From Lepidurus packardi (Eukaryota; Arthropoda; Branchiopoda; Notostraca; Triopsidae): DNA of 64,000 bases. Positions 7,918 to 50,800 of this stretch are shown in pieces. The stretch lies in assembly GCA_023053545.1 (NCBI GenBank), contig JAKZAN010000004.1, positions 4,898,001 to 4,962,000 of the forward strand. The letters are read 5' to 3'. The translations under genes were made by a program, and so were the position numbers. Position 1 is the stretch's first letter. Each line of letters opens with the position of its first letter. A model generated the notes under the pieces. It was not told the DNA's origin and searched no databases. It saw only the letters and a list, made by a program, of their open reading frames with translations.

Positions 7918-7980
7918 GGCGGGGCTTTGGGTCGACCGGGTATAAAATCAGCCGTTGCCAGCGGACATCAAATCATTGAC
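7918..7980 (+). promoter_or_regulatory. Core promoter of emc: GC box, TATA box, possible initiator
   Basis: GGCGGGGC (7918-7925) is a GC box of the Sp1/KLF type. TATAAAA follows at 7941-7947. About 30 bp downstream is TCATTG (7973-7978), close to the arthropod initiator TCAKTY. Transcription is therefore expected to start near 7970-7975, giving a 5' UTR of about 125 nt with no intervening splice site needed. Confidence 0.65.
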
Positions 7981-8099
7981 AAGCTCAGCTCTTGCACAGC
8001 AGCAACCTTTGCGCATTCTCTCAAACTCACAGTTTTCCAAGTTCGTTTTTCTTCTCGTGTTGTTTTTTGACGACAAAGTTTATCCACAACTTCGCAAAA

Positions 8100-8706
8100 A
8101 TGGTGAAATCTACCGTCAACAACGTGAAAGTCTCCGTCAGCCACAACAAAGTGTCCGACAGCAAAGTGCGCAAACCAGAACAAGTGGAGATGCAGATGTA
8201 TCTGTCCAAGTTGAAGGAATTGGTGCCTTACATGCCCAAGAATCGCAAAGTTTCCAAAGTGGAAGTCATCGAATACGTGATCGACTACATTTGCGATCTC
8301 CAAGGCGCGTTGGAAAAAAGCCACCCGAGCGCTTCGGCTGTCGTTACTGCCATGCTCAACAATATGGCCCATCAACAACAACATAACAACAACAACTGCC
8401 TGCAAGTCGCTAATGCCAACCTGTACCACAACCTCAGCGAACAGTCTCAGGCGATCAGAAACAATTCTACTATTACTACTACCTCTACCGGAATTGTACT
8501 GCCCAACCGACAGCCTTTGGTTTCCTTGCCAGCAACGCCCAACAATGCCGTTCAGAATTCCTGCGCTCAAGAGGTAATGCACACCACTTTCATACCAAAG
8601 TTCCCGAACCAGTTTAAAACTAACGTTTTGTTTTCTTTCTCTAAAGGTCAGTCCCTTGGATAAAAGCCCTTCTCAAGACTCGAGTCGGACAGTCCTGCCA
8701 TGTTAA
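8100..8706 (+). CDS. emc: Extra macrochaetae / Id-type HLH protein lacking a basic region
   Basis: This is a nuclear dominant-negative regulator: its HLH pairs with bHLH proneural and E proteins and keeps them off DNA. Two exons, 8100-8573 and 8647-8706, flank a 73-bp phase-0 intron (gtaatg...taaag) and give 177 residues. The HLH spans about residues 30-73, with helix 1 [11 protein letters not shown], loop MPKNRKVSK and helix 2 [15 protein letters not shown]. The residues before helix 1 lack the Arg-rich basic region, which is diagnostic of the Emc/Id class. The tail is rich in Asn, Gln and Thr. Start choice: an upstream in-frame start exists at 7992, but the ATG at 8100 has a strong context (CAAAAATGG) and directly precedes the family-like N terminus. 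Without splicing the frame would run on to 8663; the spliced second exon adds 19 residues ending LPC. It stands alone, with a TATA promoter 160 bp upstream. Confidence 0.93.
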
Positions 8707-35400: not shown

Positions 35401-38400
35401 ATGGATTATTTGGTTTGGTTGGGTGTAGCATTGGTGCTGCTCTGGAGCCCTGTTGTGCGAGCACAAGGTAAACTACAGAAACGAAACCTTTCGTGGGTCT
35501 TACCAAGCAAAAAAGTGCACGTCATGCATGTGCAATTTACACTACAACGCCTGATGAAAACAAGTTTTTTTGGGGGGAAAGAGAACTTGGATCCTATAAA
35601 ATCGCTCTAATGGTACTTTCATATTCGTACATAATCTGTATGGACACACATGCATATAACGTTAATGGCTGAAAAAGAGGGTAGTGAGAGAGTCTATGAC
35701 TCTGGACCGTTTTAACTTGCAAGTGATGATCTGGGGTCTTATGTGGAAAATCTATGCAGCAGACTTCGGCGCTGGGAAATAGTATATGGGTCACCCACCC
35801 ACAAGACCCAACAAACTCGTTGAGAGAGACTCTTAATAGTTTATCAGGTCTGGCTTTTGCATCACGTCATGAGAAGACAAGCCACGGCGCCCTAGTTCAT
35901 CATCCCAGCATCCTTAACAAGTTTCAAATGATATCTGAAGATGGCTCACATATAGAGAGAGTGTATCAGTGGCTGCCTAAAAGCACTTAGAGAGCATTTC
36001 TAAAAAGGCCTATTTTGGGCGGGCGTTTTTAGGAAACTTTATATTGCTCTTCACTTCTAAGTAACTTACTCGCTACAACCGCACAGTTTGTAAATAAACA
36101 AGCCGAGCTGCTGTGATTTACACGCATTCAAGTTCCAAGACTTGGTTTCGTTACGCATGTAGACACTGTCAAAGCCCGGACGGATAAATAGCTTCTGAGC
36201 ATGGAAAAGCGCATGATAACATCTAATAAATACAGCTTCCACTAACTAGTTTCAAACTTTTTATTTATTTTTTTTACTTTTTTTCTTAAACAAGAAATAA
36301 AATTTAAAAAAATCCTTCGGGTTTCTCTCGTACGTGTAGAAGAGAGTGGTGATGGGGACTATCCAGATGAGGAACTTGACGGCATCGAACCAGAACCAGA
36401 CACTGAATTTCGAGAGGATGACTTGGGTAAAAGGGCTTTTGGGCAAACATAATTACCTTTCACACATTTTTACTTTCTATCTTCAAATCAAATCTAATAA
36501 TAATTGACGACCCGATCCTGTCTCATATACGTCTAACCTTTCAAGTACTGGTGGAGGTACTCATGCTCAGCAAATACTTCGGTTTTTTTCAGTTTTTTTA
36601 ATATGCTGAGCTTCTCTTTAAAACCAGAAATAAGTCTGTTTTGCTTATCGTGTTTTTAGTAAGGTTACTATTTAATAAAAAAAATAAAACATTTCCGTAG
36701 ATTCAGGTCCACGTCGAGGGGATGTGTCAGTTTACGCTCGTCCAGGTAACATTTTCTATTTGGTTAGTTTGTGTAGTTGACGCAACACTGATCCGGCATT
36801 CACCTTTGATTATGAAAACATGTAGAGTCTGACTTTTGAGTCATTAATATGGTATGTCTCCCAACCTTTTATTAGGCGTGAATGAGTATGCCAGCTTTGA
36901 AAACGGACCCTGTTCGGATTATCGTCCTGGCGAGGATGATTTACAAGCGTTTGACTTTATCCGACAGTTCCGACTAGATGTGTTGGAAACGCAATACCCT
37001 GGTGTATCTCGCGTGCAGGGGTCTAGTCGATTGCAAACCGCGTACCGCTTAGAAAAGAAGGCTGATTTGGTCGTGCCAACTCGGTAAGGTTTTCAGCTTT
37101 GTCATATATAATATAAACCCCCATTTACATTAGAATATTCTCTGTTCTTTTCCCCATAACGATTCATCATCTTGTTCAATCCTTTTAGGAGTATTTTCCC
37201 GCAAGGATTACCCCAGCAATTCTCTTTCATTTGCACGTTCCGTACCACGAAGCCTCCGAAAACACCCTGGAACATTATTCGCATCAGTGACTTGCGACAA
37301 AAGCCTCAATTCCAAGTTACGCTTAACCCAAGCAAACAAGCTATCGAGTTTGGAATCACGGATTTCGAAGGAAAACTGCAAACGTTGGTTTTCCGCAAAG
37401 CTAAAGTATTCTTTCAATTTATTTTTCTGTTAAACAAAATGGATTGTTTGTTTTGAAAGAAAATTTTACAAATTTGCAAACGAACTATTTAATTTCTAGG
37501 TTTTTGACAAAGAATGGCACAAGATCCATTTTGGCGTCCATCGAGAGAAAGTAGTACTCTACGTGGACTGTGAGTACAGTCAAGAATTACCGTTGGATGT
37601 TCGAGGCCCCATCGATACCAACGGAGAGATTGCCATTTCTAAAGTCCTGGGCTCTAAACGCACGGTCCCAGTATGTCGAAGCTTAATGTCTTGTAGCACA
37701 GTAGTCGGGTTTAAATCATAGTCATCCTTATCGTTTATACAGATAGACCTCCAATGGATGGTTATGAGCTGTGACCCTTCCCGACCAGAGCGTGAGACCT
37801 GCGACGAATTACCAGCAGTAAGCAGTTTATTAGTACTTTGGGCATTGTTCAAGCAAGCCAAAGCTTTTATCAAAAGCCAGGGCCCGGATACCGCATTCTT
37901 TCTTGTTACATTCCTGCGTAATTTCGCAGCGCATTAGAAAAGCGAAAGGGATTTTGGCAATCTTCCCAATGCCAATGCTAAACTAGACGCGGTATACGTC
38001 TACGAAGCTTGCCACGTTACCATAGCTGCTAGTTTGAAACTTGACTTATGACTTGACTTAAAACCTGAACAGGAGATGCTGGAAGCTTCTATGTATTGTT
38101 GCCAAATAATACCAGGGAAATTACAGCTTAGCATTTTCGGATTAAAGTGAAGATAAGTAGCAGTGAGACTGTTTGGCAAATTTGCAAAACATCAGTCCAA
38201 TTTCGTTTTTCTCTTTAAGAATAATCAGGCAAAAACCAGACTAATGGTTGTGCAATAGGGAAATTAACCTGCCCACTCTTCTTGCTTTTAGAATTAAGAA
38301 GAGTTAGTGCTTATCTCGGATTTAAAGCGAAGCTGTTTCTTAACATTGTCAAATGTCGAATTCAAAACACGTTTTTTGCAAGCTTCTTCTGAATAAAAGA

Positions 38401-41400
38401 AAGAAATGGAACCGAGTCGTCCACTTCTCCAAGTCAACAAGTTTTAAATAAAACGAGTTTTCTTTTCAATTTCGGAGCTTGTAAAATGAACTACAATATT
38501 AAAAAAGTGATAGGTAGATGACTAATGGCTTCAGCTACCTCAGTCTGAACGAATCATAGAGATTAACTTCAAACTATGCAAATTAAAGTAACCGCGATTA
38601 CGGAAGTACAAGAACGATTATGAACCGCAGGTGTTTCTAGTTGTCACAAAATACATAGTGTAATTTTTAGGATTAGGAATTTGCTTACGTAAGGGTGAAG
38701 TTTAAACAATACGTCAAAATAGTTAGCCAAGTCGGAAATGATTTTAATATTACATTTTTCTCAACTTCAAGACACCAGTTGAACAAGTCCATAATTCCTG
38801 CCAAACGGTGTGTCCCCAAGGACCAGCGGGATTAAACGGAAGTCAGGTAACACCTAAACTATAATACTCGGCGTTGTGAGAATGCGAAGAATTATATTTA
38901 ATATTTCAAAAACTAGGGAGCTTCGGGGCCTCCCGGAAGACCCGGAGAGAGGGGCCTGCAAGGCATCGCTGGATTACCGGGATTGCAAGGGGTTAGGGGT
39001 GAGCCTGGCCCGCGAGGCGAACAAGTAAGTGTCACAGACCTTGACAGAAGTAGTTTCATTTAGTTGCCCATTTCTTGATTGGGCTATTGTTATTTTCATA
39101 TATTTACTGAGATAAGTAAGTCCTTCTTGTGGTTGCGGGTTATACATAAGTTTTAATGCCAACCAGCTCACCTTAGATCATGTCTAGGTATAGACAGGGC
39201 ACTACTGCGCACCGGGGTGCTGGGGCCGTTATGGCCTGGCATGCATTCGAGCCTCGTTTAAGCATAAAATAGCACAGCTAAGGTGATGGAAGCCTTCTTA
39301 TGTTTGAGTCAAAAACTTGCACGGTTAAGATGATAAACCGCAAAGGCTTGTCATCACTTTCCGTCCATGGATTGTCCTTTCTATACCTATTCACGGTCAG
39401 AGTTGCTTACAGTCAAAACACGTTCTCTGAATCTAGTTACATGCGTATGTAATATGTCCCGGAGTTCAAAAGGACATTAGTGTGTCAATTGTCCAACAAT
39501 TAATTTTTTTTGTTCAACTAGTGGGGTGAAAGAAAGTGCGAGTTTTAACGATTCTCATCAACGAAAGTTGTAACTTATCCTAACAAAACCTAAGCTAACC
39601 TAACCTACCTAACCTAATCTATCCTAACCTAACCTAATGCATTTCCAATCCAACTACCAGTTTTCAACTCGACTGACACTCGTTTGTCATTTGTTTTCCG
39701 GAGAACGTTTTGCAACAATAATACACACTATTGTCATTTTTATTTCCGAGTTCCGAAACTGGAGAACCTGTAGTATAGTCAACCGAATTCTTACACACCA
39801 TCTAGCGATCATAATTACACTAAACATTCCTTCCTAACTGACAGTTTTACCATAAAATACTAAAGTTTCAATGTGTGCCGTAAACTATTTAATTGTATAC
39901 GAAGAAGAGAGACATCTCAATTCCTGGAACCTCAAACAGCTAAAAAAAAAAAAGTAATTCTGATGTATTCCAAATCAAGGGACTGTCAGGCCTCCCAGGT
40001 CAAGTTGGACCGAGGGGCAATCCAGGGCCTGAGGCTGAGAAGGGTGATAAGGGAGACAGTGGTCAACGTGGTCTACCGGGAGATCGGGTAAGCTATTTCT
40101 TCCCGAAGCTGCTTTTCTGGCACCAGTCCTCATGTGATCCATTTTTCCAAGGGTGAACCAGGTAGCAGAGCCGAGAAGGGTGAACGCGGTGACGCAGGAA
40201 TTAGCGGTAAACCCGGAGTAGAAGGCCCCAGAGGATTCCCCGGTTTACCTGGAGAAGCTTCACGCATTGCAGGTAAGCTGAATATTTTCCTTAGTTGCAA
40301 ATACGTGTCTAACTGACCTACGATTGCAGGACCCCCAGGGCCAGTAGGACCCACCGGCGAAAGAGGATTGCCCGGAAACCCTGGTCTTGATGGGGCAACC
40401 GGCGCTCGAGGCGTAGCCGGTAAATACACTTGAAAAAAATCACATAAACGCATGTATGTGTTCTATAAACTTTTGCTACCCAGGTGAACTTGGACCTAGT
40501 GGACTACCCGGAAAAGATGGTACTCCTGGTGAAAGAGGCCCGAAAGGCGACCGTGGAGAAAGGGGCGTGGCTGGTGTAAGGGGACCGCCTGGAACTGCTG
40601 TAAGTTGTAACTGGTATTTATTTGCCAGAGCTTGTATTTACTCTTGCTTATCGCCTGAATGATTAATATAGGGTAACCCTGGGCCGCCTGGACCAGCAGG
40701 ATCGCAATTAGCTGGACAAACAGTACCAGGCCCGATGGGTCTAACGGGTCCTAGTGGTGAGCCTGGCTTACCAGGAACTCCTGGCGAAAGAGGAGAACGG
40801 GGAGAAAGAGGTGACAGAGGCGAACGCGGACTTCGAGGAGACAAAGGTAAAAACGAAAAATATTAAATTTACGTTAAGTGAATAATAAATAATACATTAG
40901 TGAATAATAAATTAACTCAAATAAATAATATTATCTTTGGGCTAAAGGTGATCGTGGTACGGTTGGTTTACCCGGAAACGATGGACTACGTGGTGAAGTT
41001 GGCCCTGCCGGACCTGGTGGTCTCAGAGGAGAAAAGGGTGAGCCAGGATTGCAGGGACTTATTGGATTGCCAGGCAATGCGGGTTTAATCGGAATGCCGG
41101 TGAGAGACTTGAATACCCTAACGAATGTATAATCAACTGCTGTACTTGTTGACTTAATTTGTACACTCACAGGGTCAAGTTGGACCGTCTGGTCCACCTG
41201 GCGAAAAAGGTGCAAGGGGATCTATTGGTGACACTGGACCCACTGGAAACCCAGGAGCGCCGGGTAGAATTGGGGATCAGGGAATACAGGGATCTCAAGG
41301 TGAGCACGACTCACTTCCATGTAATATTTAAAAAATTTTGTGTCTACATTCACAGGATTGCCCGGTCTTAGGGGAGAACAGGGAACTAAAGGTGAAAAGG

Positions 41401-43684
41401 GAGACACGGGTATTGCTGGAACTGTTGGTCCAGCCGGCATTCCGGGCCTAAAGGGACACGAAGGAAAACAAGGCAACGAAGGCGAAAAAGTAGAGCCAAA
41501 TCATTATTTTTTAAATAAACTTTGCCCAAAAGGTAACCGTTTCTATGCTCTCTAGGGACCAAGAGGCGAGAAGGGTGATGTGGGTAGCCGAGGACCGGAG
41601 GGACCTCCGGTAAGCTCTCATATGAAATTCAACGAACATTATTTTGACTAAATTAGTTGTGTTAATCTAGGGATTGGACGGAAAACCTGGCGTTCAGGGT
41701 ATCATTGGCAGACCTGGACCAAAGGGCGATAAAGGTACAGTTTTTTAAGTCATCAATGCTGTTCGCTTTATTAATGATGTTGGAATAGGTGACGGAGGCA
41801 GCACAGGAGCAGCAGGCGCCCGAGGTCCACCAGGACCTATTGTAAGCAATGACGAATTATTGTTTCCAGTTATTTAGCAAAAGTTTTGGTATTAGGGCGT
41901 TCCAGGAGTTAGCGGTCAACAGGGCCCACAAGGCCTACCAGGGATGATGGGTAGATCCGGGCCTCCTGGGCCACCAGGTCCTCCAGGCCCTCCCGGTGAA
42001 CGTGCAGTAATACCTTCTAATTTGAGTTCGCGAGATGGAGATGGCGCACCCGGAGCCATGGGCGCTACTGGTTTACCAGGACCAGCTGGCATAGTGAGTA
42101 CTATAATGCTAGTTTTACTTGAAGTTCCAACACTGGAGCTATAATTAGATGTCTGCAAGTTAATTCTAACTAATTAATCTCTCTTTCCGTAGCCCGGTGA
42201 GAGAGGCGCAGATGGCCAGAGAGGACCAGAAGGTGCACCCGGCAACCCTGGCGTACCCGGAGTAGAAGGAGCGCCTGGTTTGCAAGTATACATGCCAACA
42301 ACGCCTGCACTTAGTACTATATTCTGGTAACTTTATTTTTTTAAGGGTGTTGCAGGTCCCAGAGGAATACAAGGTTCTCCTGGATTAAACGGCGCTCCAG
42401 TAAGTGAATTTTTTTTTTTTTTTAATTGCTCGGTTTGATCAAATTTTGTATTATAGGGTCGCAGTTACTCGGAATCGGAACTTAGAGATATTTGCGCTTC
42501 GGTCTTGAGAGGTAAGCTCAAACATACATTACACAGCTTAAATTTAGATGGTGTCGTAAAGAAGGATTTATCTACATATTCCAAAAATATAATTATGAAA
42601 CTAATGCGAATTAGATCAACTGGCTGAGTTGACAGCAACGTTACGAGGTCCTCCAGGTCCACCAGGAAGGACCCGAGTTGGAAAACCCGGTACTCAGGGT
42701 CAACAGGGTGCACCAGGTTTGACATTTCAGATACATAGTGGACATACTGGGAACCGCTGCCGGGCATGATAAAAAATCACACACGGCCGTAGATTCAATG
42801 CCTCAGAAAAATGGGAGAATGAGCTGCATGAAAGCACTGCTTTAATTACGGACTACTTTTTTTTTTATTGCACCTGGCATGTGTAGATCAACTAGAAGAA
42901 TTGACTGCGGGATTAAGTGGTCCTCCAGGAATGCCCGGAAGAGCACGCGTAGGCAGACCTGGCCCACCAGGGCCTATGGGTATCCCAGGTATTAACTTGA
43001 ATCGTCTTTGCATAGAAAGCACTTAGGAAAAAGAAACTAATGTACCAACCTTCATAATACTTTGCATGTTTCGGATATGGGAGCTTTCGGGAACTAGCTT
43101 TTAAACAAAACTAAGAGAATTAAAACTAAACGATTTATTTTTTCGCAAGGTGAACCGGGCAAGAACGGTATGCCGGGTGAAAGAGGGTTTACCGGGGTTC
43201 CAGGTAATACTGGACCTGCTGGTCCTGAAGGAATTAGGGGTGAACGAGGAGACAAGGGTGACCGTGGACCGTCTGGAATCGGTATCGAGGGTCCCATGGG
43301 ACCTATCGGTTTGCAAGGTAAAGACACGCTTTGTACAGTGCATAAATAGGCTCATTTTTCAATATTCCAAATTCATTTCCTGTACCTTACGTTGGTAATC
43401 TATTTTGTTTTATTTCCAGGACCTCCTGGCCCACCAGGTGTTGGCTTGCCTGGTCGACAGGGAGAAAGAGGCGATTCTGGTAAACAGGGTAAGTTTTCCT
43501 TATTTTCCTATATCGAGATTCAACTGTGACAAGTCAATTGAATGCTGTTGTTTTTTGCTAAGGTGTTCCTGGACATAGGGGTCAACCTGGTCCCCCTGGC
43601 AACTGTGAAGGTTGCAACAATAATTACGCTTTGGCTTATGCTGCTCGACCTTCCATCAACAACGAGAAAGGGCCGTCAAAATAG
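35401..43684 (+). CDS. Type IX-like collagen alpha chain (TSPN domain plus interrupted triple helix)
   Basis: A secreted matrix collagen, nearest in plan to collagen alpha-1(IX). Phase-matched exons: 35401-35467, 36340-36426, 36701-36745, 36876-37083, 37189-37405, 37500-37670, 37743-37817, 38772-38846, 38917-39024, 39980-40087, 40152-40272, 40330-40419, 40484-40599, 40672-40846, 40948-41099, 41173-41299, 41356-41489, 41556-41609, 41671-41734, 41789-41841, 41896-42093, 42193-42285, 42346-42399, 42457-42511, 42615-42716, 42887-42988, 43150-43317, 43420-43488, 43563-43684. The product is 1069 residues with all exons, 1035 if exon 25 or 26 is skipped. Order: signal peptide ([20 protein letters not shown]), acidic segment (about 23-51), thrombospondin N-terminal-like domain (about 67-290) ending [20 protein letters not shown] as in human COL9A1, then Gly-X-Y from about 307. 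Interruptions follow GEAS and GSQ, one holds [11 protein letters not shown], and a Cys-bearing one reads [13 protein letters not shown]. The C terminus is short with a CEGC pair, probably for interchain bonds. Several exons are 54 or 108 nt. Two glycines are replaced by Ala. Confidence 0.93.
39187..39387. mobile_element. MITE-like element in collagen intron 9
   Basis: Near-matching terminal inverted repeats (GGTATAGACAGGGCA at the left; the reverse complement of the right end is GGTATAGAAAGGACA) sit inside a TA dinucleotide on each side (39185-39186 and 39388-39389), as for Tc1/mariner-type MITEs. A second inner inverted pair (39280-39296 with 39343-39359) makes it fold back on itself. It is 201 bp with no coding frame. 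Confidence 0.55.
39579..39637. repeat. Degenerate interstitial telomere-like (CCTAA)n array
   Basis: Fifty-nine bp built mostly of CCTAA/ACCTAA units, several exact (CCTAACCTAACCTAA at the end) and others changed at one base. CCTAA is the complement of the arthropod telomere repeat TTAGG. It lies in collagen intron 9, about 190 bp after the MITE-like element. Confidence 0.75.
42615..42988 (+). other. Tandemly duplicated exon pair 25/26 of the collagen gene
   Basis: Exon 25 (42615-42716) and exon 26 (42887-42988) are both exactly 102 nt, both phase 1 at each end, and encode similar peptides starting [15 protein letters not shown] and [15 protein letters not shown]. Either one alone restores a normal single non-collagenous segment after exon 24. 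Intron 25 is 170 bp. Exon 25 has the weaker donor (GTTTGA). Confidence 0.85.
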
Positions 43685-45129: not shown

Positions 45130-46947
45130 CTAGTCTTCGGGCTCAGCTATTTCCATCAAACAGAGCTTGGCTACTGGCCGGACATACTCCCCATGTTTTG
45201 TTTTGACAAGTGCCGTTCTGACAAGGCCATCAGGTCCGGGGTATACCTGAATCACTCGTGCGATTGGCCAGAGGCCTCTTGGACTGTTCTCATCGATCAA
45301 CAGCACGACGTCATCGGGTTGAAGGTTGCGGTTCGGCCGAACTCATTTCCTACGTTCAATGATGGACGGCACATACTCTCGCAGCCATCGGCGCCAGAAT
45401 CGCTCGGTTATCGCTTGAGAAGCTCTCCACCGTTTACGAGCGTTAAGATCTTCATCCGTCACGAGTCCAGTCGGCAGGTTAGGGTTGGCTCGGCCCAGTA
45501 AGAAGTGATTCGGCGTCAGCGGCTCCGGATCTTCGGGATTCATACTGAGATGCGTCAAGGGTCTACCATTCAGCAGTGACTCCACTTCTGCCATAACGGT
45601 TGTGAGGATTTCGTCCGTTACGGTTTGATCCAGCAATGTGTATCTAAGGGCGACTTTAGCGGAGCGTACCAGACGTTCCCAGACTCCGCCAAAGTGTGGG
45701 GACGCAGGGGGGGAAAAGTGCCAACTGATTTCTCGCTGTGCCAGCTCGTCCGCAATTCGCTTCTGGTTACAGGCTTTCAAGTTTTGCCGGAGCTCCTTCT
45801 CACCTGCACTTAGGTTAGTTCCATTATCACTAAAAACGTGCACCGGAGCGCCGCGACGGCTGACAAATCGTCTAAAAGCCAAGATAAACGAGTCAGTATC
45901 TAGTGAGTGTGCAACTTCCAGGTGGACTGCGCGCGTGACGAGGTACGTGAAGAGGCAAACGTAACGTTTGTGTACTCTTCGATGAATTACGACCGCGAAC
46001 GGTCCAAAGTAATCCACGCCAACGTTCGTGAATGGTGGGCTATACGTATCTAGTCGTTGCCGGGGTAAGGCAGCCATCAACTGGACGCACGGCTTGGCTC
46101 GATAACGGTTACAGGCGAAGCACCCGTTTACAATCTTGTTCACAGCCGCCCGACCTCCTGTCACCCAGTACTGGAGACGCAAATCGGCTAAAGTTCGCTC
46201 GGTTGACCCATGTGCTAGCCTTTCGTGTGTACGGCGGATTAGTAATGCCGTCAGCGGGCTATCAGGGCTCAGGAGTATAGGGTGCTTGACGTTGGACGGG
46301 ACGTCGGCATGTTGGATTCTTCCGCCCACCCGTATGATACTTTGCTCGTCCAGGAAGGGAGTCAGTTTCAGGAGTTTCGAATTGCGCGGGAGCGGTTCTT
46401 TCTTCTCCAGGGCAGCATAATCCAATCCCATGAGGCGCTTCTGTTCTACCGTGATGAACTTGAGAAGGGCATCGCTGCATTCAGCAACTGACAGGTGCCC
46501 CTTCTCCACGGAAAACTTGGACGGTCGCGTGTTCCTGGTAAAGCGAAGAGTTCAAGCCAGAATACGCTTCAAACTGTTTAGGTTAGACGTACCTCGCAGG
46601 ACTTCGAGTGATTCGTCTTTGTCTACCCCAACAGAGGCAATCAGCGGTGGTAGTATTTCTTGGTCAGTGTTATCGGGCTCTCTCTGGATTTGTTCAGCGG
46701 GCCACTCAGAGGGCGGCTGCTGGAGGAAAGTTGGCCCGTTGAGCCATCGGTTCGGTGTGACCAGGGAAGTTGCTTCTAGCCCTCTAGAACTGTCATTGGC
46801 GGGGTTCAGCTTCCCCGGAATATGTCTCCACTGGTCGGATTCCGTAAGCTCTAGAATTTCAGTGACCCTATTTGCGACGAAGGTTTTATACCGGCAGGTT
46901 TTTGAGCGGATGTGCAAAACGCATAAATTCAGGAAAAGCAAGTCCAT
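45130..46947 (-). pseudogene. BEL/Pao retrotransposon pol, 3' part, two nonsense codons
   Basis: One minus-strand frame encodes the end of the RNase H region (TFVANRVTEI, later WRHIPGKLNPANDSSRGLEA), a zinc-binding integrase N terminus (HERLAHGSTERTL, CFACNRYRA), the integrase core (GVDYFGPF, FSDNGTN and HFGGVWERLVRSAK with its catalytic Asp, Asp, Glu order plausible) and the BEL-type C-terminal tail (LIDENSPRGLWPIARV). TGA stops interrupt it at 46554-46552 and 45345-45343, each where the family has Trp. Reverse transcriptase, protease and gag are missing: the copy is truncated near 46.95 kb. It cannot move on its own. Confidence 0.9.
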
Positions 46948-47842: not shown

Positions 47843-50800
47843 ATGGAAGATTACGAGGTGCTCGAAATGGTTGGCGAAGGCTCTTTCGGACGCGTCTACA
47901 AAGCTAGATACAAAAAATCTAGAAATATCGTGGCTCTCAAGTTTATTCCTAAAGTAAATCAACGCTTTATTTGACTAGAAAAAGTACTTTTAAGTAATAA
48001 TAAACGTTCCAGATTGGTCGGTCAGAGCGAGAATGGCGAAGTTTGCGTCAAGAATGCGAAATTCAGAAGAATCTCAGACACCCCAACATCATCAGTATGT
48101 TAGGAGCCTTTGAAACAAGCAAAGAAGTAATGTTGAAACATGCAAATCTAGCAGGTTTAAGTTGTTCTCTTACTCTTTCATAGGTAGTTGCAGTAACAGA
48201 GTTTGCTGATGGAGAATTATTAGACTTGTTAGAGAAGGACAGGACTCTGACTGAAGCAAAAGTACAGGAGATTGCTTGTCAGCTCATTTCAGCTTTGTAC
48301 TACTTGCACGCTCATCGGATCCTCCATCGCGATATCAAACCTCAAAACATCTTGCTAACAAAGAAAGGAACCGTGAAATTATGCGACTTTGGTTTCGCGA
48401 GAGCCATGGACCTCAACACTTATGTTTTAACATCTGTCAAAGGTACGCCTCTGTATATGGCCCCGGAAATTATTGAAGAAAATCCATACGACCATAATGC
48501 AGACCTATGGTTAGTATTCCAAATCAAAATTGAAAAGCTTTGAAAATCACTAAAAAAATGTAGTACAAAATAATTTAGGTCGTTGGGATGTATCTTATAT
48601 GAATTACTGATGGGTATTCCCCCCTTTTGCACCACCTCCTTGCTTCAACTCATTCGCAAAATCAGATACGATGCAATCCACTGGCCAATTGACACAAGCG
48701 CTAATTGCTTAAGTTTGATACAAGTATTTATAAAAATATTTCCCTAAAAATCTGAACGATATAATCATGAATTAAACTGATATTGCTCGTCTTAGGGCTT
48801 ACTCGAAAAAGATAGTCGCAAACGACTAACCTGGCCAGCCCTACTAGAGCATCCATTTGTTGCAGGCAACGTCCTCGTATTGCCTCAGACTGGTAAACTC
48901 ATCAATTATGGGGTCGGGAAAATTTATTTGATTATAATTTTTTTTTAATCCCTTATCTCAGACCAGTCCATGTCCATGCCAGCGTTAACCAGAATGCTAA
49001 CAGCTTCAGAAGAGCTAGCTAAAGAATTACAACGCCAAGAGATAGCTCAAAGACTGCTCACGCAACCCAGGTAAAGCCTCTTTCTGTCACAACAATAACA
49101 AAATGCATGTAAGAAGAGTGTTTTCATTATAGTATGACTAGAAGAAAACACTACCTTGCTTATGCTAACCGAGCTCGTTCACACCAGATTATGTAACTGC
49201 CTTCTACGGCGTAATATTTTTTAAAGTTAAAAGTACATTCTTGAAGATCCCGTATAACTTAACTCGGCATATTTGCTTAGCATGCTAAGTTGGAATAAAA
49301 TTCGGAACGAAGATATCCCGAGATTTTTACATACATGTTCTCTTTGCTTTGCGAAATGCAGTATGAAAGGCCTTTTAGTCAACTTATATGCAGGTGCACA
49401 TGAATTTCCACGGATTAACATCTTAATCTGCATATTGCGAATTTGCTGTGAAATGCAAATTAGCATATCCATATCTTGGTCCTGTAATTAACCAAAAAGG
49501 AATCATAGGAAAATCAAGGTAATGAAAACAATACGTGTTTCATTCTAGGTTGTTTGCTAGAGCGGCGCAGAAGCTCGAAGAGTATGAACGACGTCGCAAC
49601 AGTGCTCCTACCCAAACCGCGCCAAGATACCACGGCCAGGTCCAAAAACTAAATGCGGACACGCCTACGGCTTGGCCGTTGCAATATCCCACGGCTATAA
49701 GTTTACAAGGCCCGTTGCCGTTCGCCAAAACCACGTATGACAATCTGTTACCCGCTCCTGTCCTTACCTCAGCCCACACGGAAATTTCGACCAAAGAATT
49801 GGACATGACAGTCACAGGTGTGGACGTCAGCCAGCTCCAGTTAAACCCGAGCGATACTGTTGCAGTCCCCCCTGATGACACCGAAGCCATGCGAAGTCCT
49901 TTTCCCCTGCACAGTCTCACGTCAGATTCTCGCCCCCTCGAGAACGACGAATGGCTCGAATTCCTTAATTCAACGTTAGAAGATGCGTTGGATAGCTCTC
50001 CCAGCATGCTAGAACAGCGCAATTTGATGGCTGTCTTAGTCAGTCCGTTAAGAAATCCTCAAGCTGCACCAGCCGTGTTGGAACGCATCGCGGTTTTGTT
50101 GTCGGTACCTTTTGCGAACGCTGACTCCAGTTCCGATGAAACGTTAGAACCGATCTACCAGGTTTACCTGGACAACAAGGTGGTACCAAATTTGCTGTAT
50201 GCGAGCAAGCTTTTAGCGCGACGGCGCGGAGAAAGTGGGGGCGACATGGAGCCAATAACAGAAAGTAAACAGTCGTCAGAAAGTGGCGACATGGCTGACC
50301 ACAATGGCGGCCCCACCTTGCCAGAATTAACAGCCGACGAGTTACAAGCCCTTGATATGTTGTTGGCGCTGTTGACCCGGTTAGTGCACTCACAAAGAGC
50401 CGACTTTCTGCTCCAGTTCTGTGACGCCCTTTGCGTGCTGGGAGCGGGACCTTTACTGTCGCGATTGTTAGCGCAAGATCGCAGGAAAGTTCGGCTGGTC
50501 ATGGATATCCTAGCCTTGCTCGCCCACGTGCTCCGATCTTGTCCTGATAACGGAGCTGTTGTCCAAGAAGTCCTACTTTCCGAAGGTAATCTCGCAGTTT
50601 GTTTGGTTCCAAACTTTCCCAGGCTCTCACATAATAATGTTGTTTTAAGATGAGATATTGCACAGGTAAAAGCAATTGCGAAAGGGAGAAACATAATTTA
50701 TTCCGCATGTGCAACAAACATCTACTTCAGTATCAGTAACTCCGTAGCATTAGGTTTTAAAACATTGTTTTCGTCGCTTATTTAATGGCAAAAAGAAGCT

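Follow-up and report, generated by a model that had tools for sequence, protein, structure and literature searches.

A collagen IX-like gene in the window

The window, by which we mean the whole 64,000-nt stretch of Lepidurus packardi DNA that was analysed, carries a gene that encodes a collagen IX alpha-1-type fibril-associated chain (Table 1). Its domains run in the order signal peptide, NC4, collagen domains, NC2, COL1, and NC1, with exons 1 to 3 placed by splice signals and reading frame alone. Exons 4 to 7 match residues 4-223 of the 223 in the NC4 of collagen alpha-1(IX) (2UUR; E = 1.5e-55), which gives the protein the N-terminal thrombospondin-N/laminin-G-like NC4 domain of a collagen IX alpha-1 chain; the Pfam model Laminin_G_2 scores 18.9 bits on this NC4, under its cut-off of 22.9. 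As in that chain, an NC2 lies between COL2 and COL1, and the protein ends in a COL1-like domain with small Gly-X-Y breaks followed by an NC1 with CEGC.

Exon 24 joined to either exon 25 or exon 26 aligns with the NC2 of collagen IX (PDB 5CTD, 5CTI, 5CVA, 5CVB, and 9WXP) at the same position in the chain, cysteine included. The query is short and its E-values are modest, those for exons 24 and 25 being 0.0039 (9wxp) and 0.0063 (5ctd) against COL9A3 NC2 and 0.65 against COL9A1, and those for exons 24 and 26 being 0.0055 (9wxp) and 0.59 (5ctd) against COL9A3 and 0.023 against COL9A1, while a longer query aligns in place. The initial annotation had proposed a type IX-like collagen with a segment resembling the NC2 of COL9A1. 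The matches to solved collagen IX domains uphold the type IX and NC2 identity, although the best NC2 match is to the alpha-3 and not the alpha-1 chain.

Table 1. Coordinates of the collagen IX-like gene and its features around the duplicated exons (positions in the window)
Feature	Position	Strand	Description
Collagen IX alpha-1-type gene	35401..43684	+	29 exons; AG/GT borders and one open frame
Exon 24	42457..42511	+	Constant first NC2 half with cysteine; exits in phase 1; aligned to collagen IX NC2
Intron 24	42512..42614	+	103 nt; contains 42550-42566 and GAAACTAATG at 42597-42606
Exon 25	42615..42716	+	Copy A: second NC2 half and COL1 start; 102 nt, phase 1-1
Intron 25	42717..42886	+	170 nt, separates the copies; 52-nt AG-free stretch ahead of the acceptor
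Exon 26	42887..42988	+	Copy B: second NC2 half and COL1 start; 102 nt, phase 1-1
Intron 26	42989..43149	+	161 nt; second GAAACTAATG at 43033-43042
Exon 27	43150..43317	+	COL1 continuation; starts in phase 1
Stop codon	43682-43684	+	

When the genome was searched with the NC2, NC1, and NC4 of this gene, the sole responder was the gene itself. The COL9A3 NC2 query returned zero matches in the same genome, and because it missed even the collagen IX-like gene, partner chains may have been overlooked. No arthropod relative was found in the sequence collections searched. Matches to the fibrillar-collagen C-propeptide (PF01410) lie at two places in the genome outside the window (L013 and L014, on contigs 1 and 2), and fibrils for a fibril-associated collagen should therefore exist in this animal. 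Two TAG codons fall within the L014 match, on contig 2, and may mark an intron.

Several other features were seen in the window. Within the 955-nt intron 9 lie about 13 imperfect TAACC copies (39571-39637), which we take to resemble the arthropod telomere repeat TTAGG. A 402-aa open frame on the minus strand (45343-46551), some 1.7 kb downstream of the gene, matches PF17921 (integrase zinc-binding domain) and PF18701 (DUF5641) and looks like a BEL/Pao-type retroelement. An open frame at 7980-8663 has a helix-loop-helix domain (PF00010) and is, we assume, possibly an Id/emc-type regulator, and a 375-aa open frame at 49526-50653 has zero Pfam matches at E 0.001. Outside the window, a scan of viral contigs for related sequences gave one locus, L010, at 41% identity.

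Likeness and age of exons 25 and 26

The two homologous exons lie side by side and match in length and phase; each has AG before it and GT after it, and 170 nt separate them. The initial annotation had pointed to their adjacency, length, and phase, to the shared motifs DQLxELTAxL, GPPGxPGR, and RVGxPG, and to an exon 24 terminating in CASVLR; all of them are found in the sequence, RVGRPG being one form of the last shared motif. The two copies are identical at 65/102 nucleotides and 23/34 amino acids, and their differences fall at codon positions 1, 2, and 3 in 7, 8, and 22 cases. Because collagen repeats are alike in any case, we ran a control against 968 ungapped 34-aa windows taken elsewhere in the protein, the best of which reached 13/34 with either copy. 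By BLOSUM the pair scored 120 and the best other windows 49 and 45. In the first 11 residues, which are non-collagenous, the two exons agreed at 8/11, compared with 4 (exon 25) and 5 (exon 26) for the best other windows.

At the 17 fourfold-degenerate codons common to the two exons, 6 third positions are identical, which is near the expectation for unrelated third positions. The Nei-Gojobori method gave a dS of about 2.7 (saturated), a dN of 0.26, and a dN/dS of about 0.10, a ratio that is rough when drawn from 34 codons and that, being pairwise, cannot separate the two copies. Because synonymous sites are saturated and dN/dS is near 0.10, the duplication is old and its peptide constrained; exons 25 and 26 are an ancient tandem duplication under constraint. 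A degenerate DQLxELTA pattern occurs at exactly two places in the 108.6-Mb genome. We found no third exon copy in the window by ungapped DNA comparison, and none in the genome by the exact degenerate pattern, which a diverged copy would escape.

The copies differ at 3/11 residues in the second half of the NC2 helix and in the first COL1 triplets. At a position where all three collagen IX chains carry Ala, exon 25 does too, and its helix ends in Arg against Arg or Lys in those chains; in exon 26 these two residues are Glu and Ser, and Gly takes the place of the Thr of exon 25. In the helix half, exon 25 thus looks nearer the common collagen IX form, and exon 26 appears derived. The NC2 cysteine lies in exon 24 and is retained by every splice form.

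Splice forms and predicted products

The four splice forms (one copy, the other, both, or neither) are all in frame. Because exon 27 starts in phase 1, either copy joins it with a Gly codon, whereas the 25-26 junction codon is Asp (GAT). Skipping both copies (42512-43317) also keeps the frame and leaves Gly at the 24-27 junction (CASVLRGEPG), so that a shorter chain lacking the second half of NC2 could be made. Introns 25 and 26 exceed all 16 others from intron 10 on (54-102 nt), intron 24 aside.

Three hypothetical products, each running from exon 23 to the stop codon, were compared with solved chains, the collagen IX chains all coming from PDB 9wxp and being, we assume, vertebrate. In these searches fibrillar collagens and one repetitive fibril protein had the top totals, built up from many overlapping weak repeat matches, with collagen IX next. 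Both one-copy products aligned over query residues 1-162 in one piece with residues 7-167 of COL9A1, 8-169 of COL9A3, and 6-166 of COL9A2. Either copy alone would therefore restore the collagen IX distance from NC2 to NC1 within one residue, with a COL1 of conserved length and a cysteine-bearing NC1 (162 residues versus 161-162). The exon 25-only product scored 86.8 (COL9A1), 83.5 (COL9A3), and 75.5 bits (COL9A2), and the exon 26-only product 86.6, 83.5, and 81.8 bits, compared with 72.9, 69.8, and 66.2 bits for the product with both copies. Against COL9A1 the two-copy product broke into two pieces (24.8 + 52.0 bits) with query residues 51-91 omitted. Its best stretch began past NC2 for COL9A3 (residue 91) and COL9A2 (residue 89), as read from table rows, the residue-by-residue view being that of COL9A1 only. 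The product comparison favours the use of one copy at a time in the predicted protein, and the length comparison is new support for it here.

The splice sites of the pair were ranked among 28. Scored from +1 to +6, exon 25 has the weakest donor of the set and exon 26 the next weakest (rank-sum P = 0.0026); when the scoring runs from -3 to +6, their ranks are 5 and 7 (P = 0.08). The acceptors of exons 25 and 26 rank 1 and 13 when the last 12 intron bases are used, 2 and 7 with 20 bases, 10 and 15 with 30, and 17 and 11 with 40, while an alternative scoring with two exon bases in the acceptor puts the acceptors at 1 and 4 and the donors at 4 and 7. The weakness depends on the window chosen; it hints at regulated exons, most clearly for exon 25.

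Candidate devices that would enforce exclusion were also considered. Frameshift, one known device for exon exclusion although not a requirement for it, is rejected by the four in-frame forms. Steric interference is rejected by the length of intron 25, given that introns of 54 nt exist in the same gene, and since the AG-free stretch takes up 52 nt of this intron, the branch point should be at least about 116 nt away from the donor. All borders are GT-AG and the donors are U2-like, as judged by eye, so U2/U12 incompatibility is rejected as well.

The initial annotation had suggested looking for docking or pairing sequences in and around intron 25, and one marginal helix came to light, the rest being at chance. 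Long duplexes between introns 24, 25, and 26 were at chance, with 0.52, 0.40, and 0.97 of 300 shuffles at least as stable, and folding of the whole region gave a z of -0.78 (60 shuffles). The best ungapped helix joins 42550-42566 in intron 24 to the pyrimidine tract of exon 26 (42858-42874) and is reached by 3-4% of 200 shuffles, a figure uncorrected for the four comparisons made over three intron pairs of one genome; helices in the other intron pairs were at chance level. A second pairing, 42567-42583 with 42875-42891, is 82% complementary and one of 6 inverted pairs, and it is not additive with the first because it crosses it. We regard the helix that pairs intron 24 with the acceptor region of exon 26 as a marginal lead only.

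The exact 10-mer GAAACTAATG stands in both flanking introns, 24 and 26. The motif of the STAR protein ASD-2 extends to ACTAAY, which occurs in 5/28 introns (also in 1, 7, and 21), and ACTAAT resembles a branch point; a STAR-motif role of the 10-mer is therefore not claimed. In the passages available, ASD-2 is described as binding CUAAC repeats (PMC3469465), and competing RNA structures are proposed as a common device in mutually exclusive exon clusters (PMC6071210).

Probable use of one copy at a time and its meaning for type IX collagen

These data are best read as mutually exclusive, or almost exclusive, use of the two copies, and we consider this reading probable. Exon 24 would supply the constant first half of NC2 with its cysteine, and exon 25 or exon 26 would each complete NC2 and begin COL1, so that a mature transcript would take one copy, as 24-25-27 or 24-26-27. 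Two chain versions would result, alike in length but distinct in the second half of the helix and in the first COL1 triplets. The initial annotation had proposed such exclusion: it is favoured by the collinearity of the one-copy products, by the conservation of both copies, and, in one of the two scorings, by weak 5' sites, but no enforcing device was identified and all four forms are in frame. The matching length and phase of the copies and the greater length of introns 25 and 26 also speak for it. The conservation of the exon 26 helix half is most easily explained if exon 26, like exon 25, joins exon 24 directly.

Were both copies instead constitutive, the chain would pass from a full NC2 through a short stretch of triple helix and an added interruption of 11 residues into a lengthened COL1. 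Collagens tolerate interruptions of the triple helix, the double form is in frame, and intron 25 has room enough for ordinary splicing, with a T10 tract in its AG-free stretch. Such a chain, however, would lose its one-piece collinearity with collagen IX and would carry Asp for Gly at the 25-26 junction, and its second half-domain would have no partner from exon 24, leaving the conservation unexplained; we judge this arrangement unlikely. The proposal in the initial annotation that both copies together would give two NC2 segments in tandem does not hold for two full segments, since the second would lack both the exon 24 half and the cysteine. Looser use, in which transcripts normally take exon 26, with exon 25 as an optional or rare cassette, and some carry one, both, or neither, fits the four in-frame forms and the sites of exon 25, whose acceptor (12 intron bases) and donor (+1 to +6) are each the weakest of 28. 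Yet the acceptor weakness is gone at windows of 30 or 40, the helix half of exon 25 resembles the collagen IX chains more than that of exon 26 does, and the pair comparison shows exon 25 to be as constrained as exon 26, which would be odd for a rare exon; this we hold to be quite improbable.

The pair could also be non-functional, whether through chance likeness between collagen repeats, duplication in the assembly, or decay of one copy, and such repeats do lift chance similarity, as the background of 13/34 attests. The agreement of the pair, overall and in the non-collagenous part, lies well above that background, and the DQLxELTA pattern is confined to its two genomic places. Chance similarity is ruled out by the window control and a recent assembly copy by the saturated synonymous sites, while the open frames and a ratio near 0.10 argue against decay, which together make a non-functional pair very improbable.

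The kind of phenomenon is already known, because alternative collagen exons are shown by let-2, COL5A1, and the human genes COL9A3, COL24A1, and COL13A1. The let-2 gene of C. elegans is likewise an alternatively spliced collagen gene, with exons 9 and 10 as a mutually exclusive pair, but it encodes a type IV collagen and not a type IX NC2. Exons 64A and 64B of COL5A1 are likewise a collagen exon pair and mutually exclusive, but they belong to a fibrillar collagen and not to a trimerisation domain inside a FACIT. The passages available describe the alternative splicing of let-2 as regulated and controlled by ASD-2 (PMC3469465) and the COL5A1 exons as an alternatively used pair (PMC13077938), and they name human mutually exclusive exons for COL9A3, COL24A1, and COL13A1 (PMC5740500). 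COL9A3 is thus a type IX chain gene also named with such exons, the positions of which are not given in the passage of PMC5740500. Among the matches listed from the openly licensed literature, there was neither an arthropod type IX collagen with alternative NC2 exons nor an exon pair rewriting half of a type IX trimerisation domain.

In the passages available, the NC2 of type IX collagen is said to determine chain selection and stagger (PMC5126661, PMC12562938) and to be the smallest known collagen trimerisation domain (PMC5126661), and three genes are said to give its three NC2 chains (PMC12562938). In contrast to those three NC2 genes, the gene described here has two versions of the second half. 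The choice of copy may alter how chains pair, their register, or the stiffness of the NC2 hinge in this animal. A rather unlikely but conceivable reading is that a single gene gives two NC2 chain types by exon choice, so that the animal would form type IX homotrimers or mixed trimers that differ in register or hinge.

A natural exon swap within NC2, if true, would be a ready experiment on chain selection by a few residues, and splicing would do work that is given to separate genes in vertebrates. Should the one-gene reading hold as well, chains in this animal would be selected by splicing, as opposed to the three genes of vertebrates.
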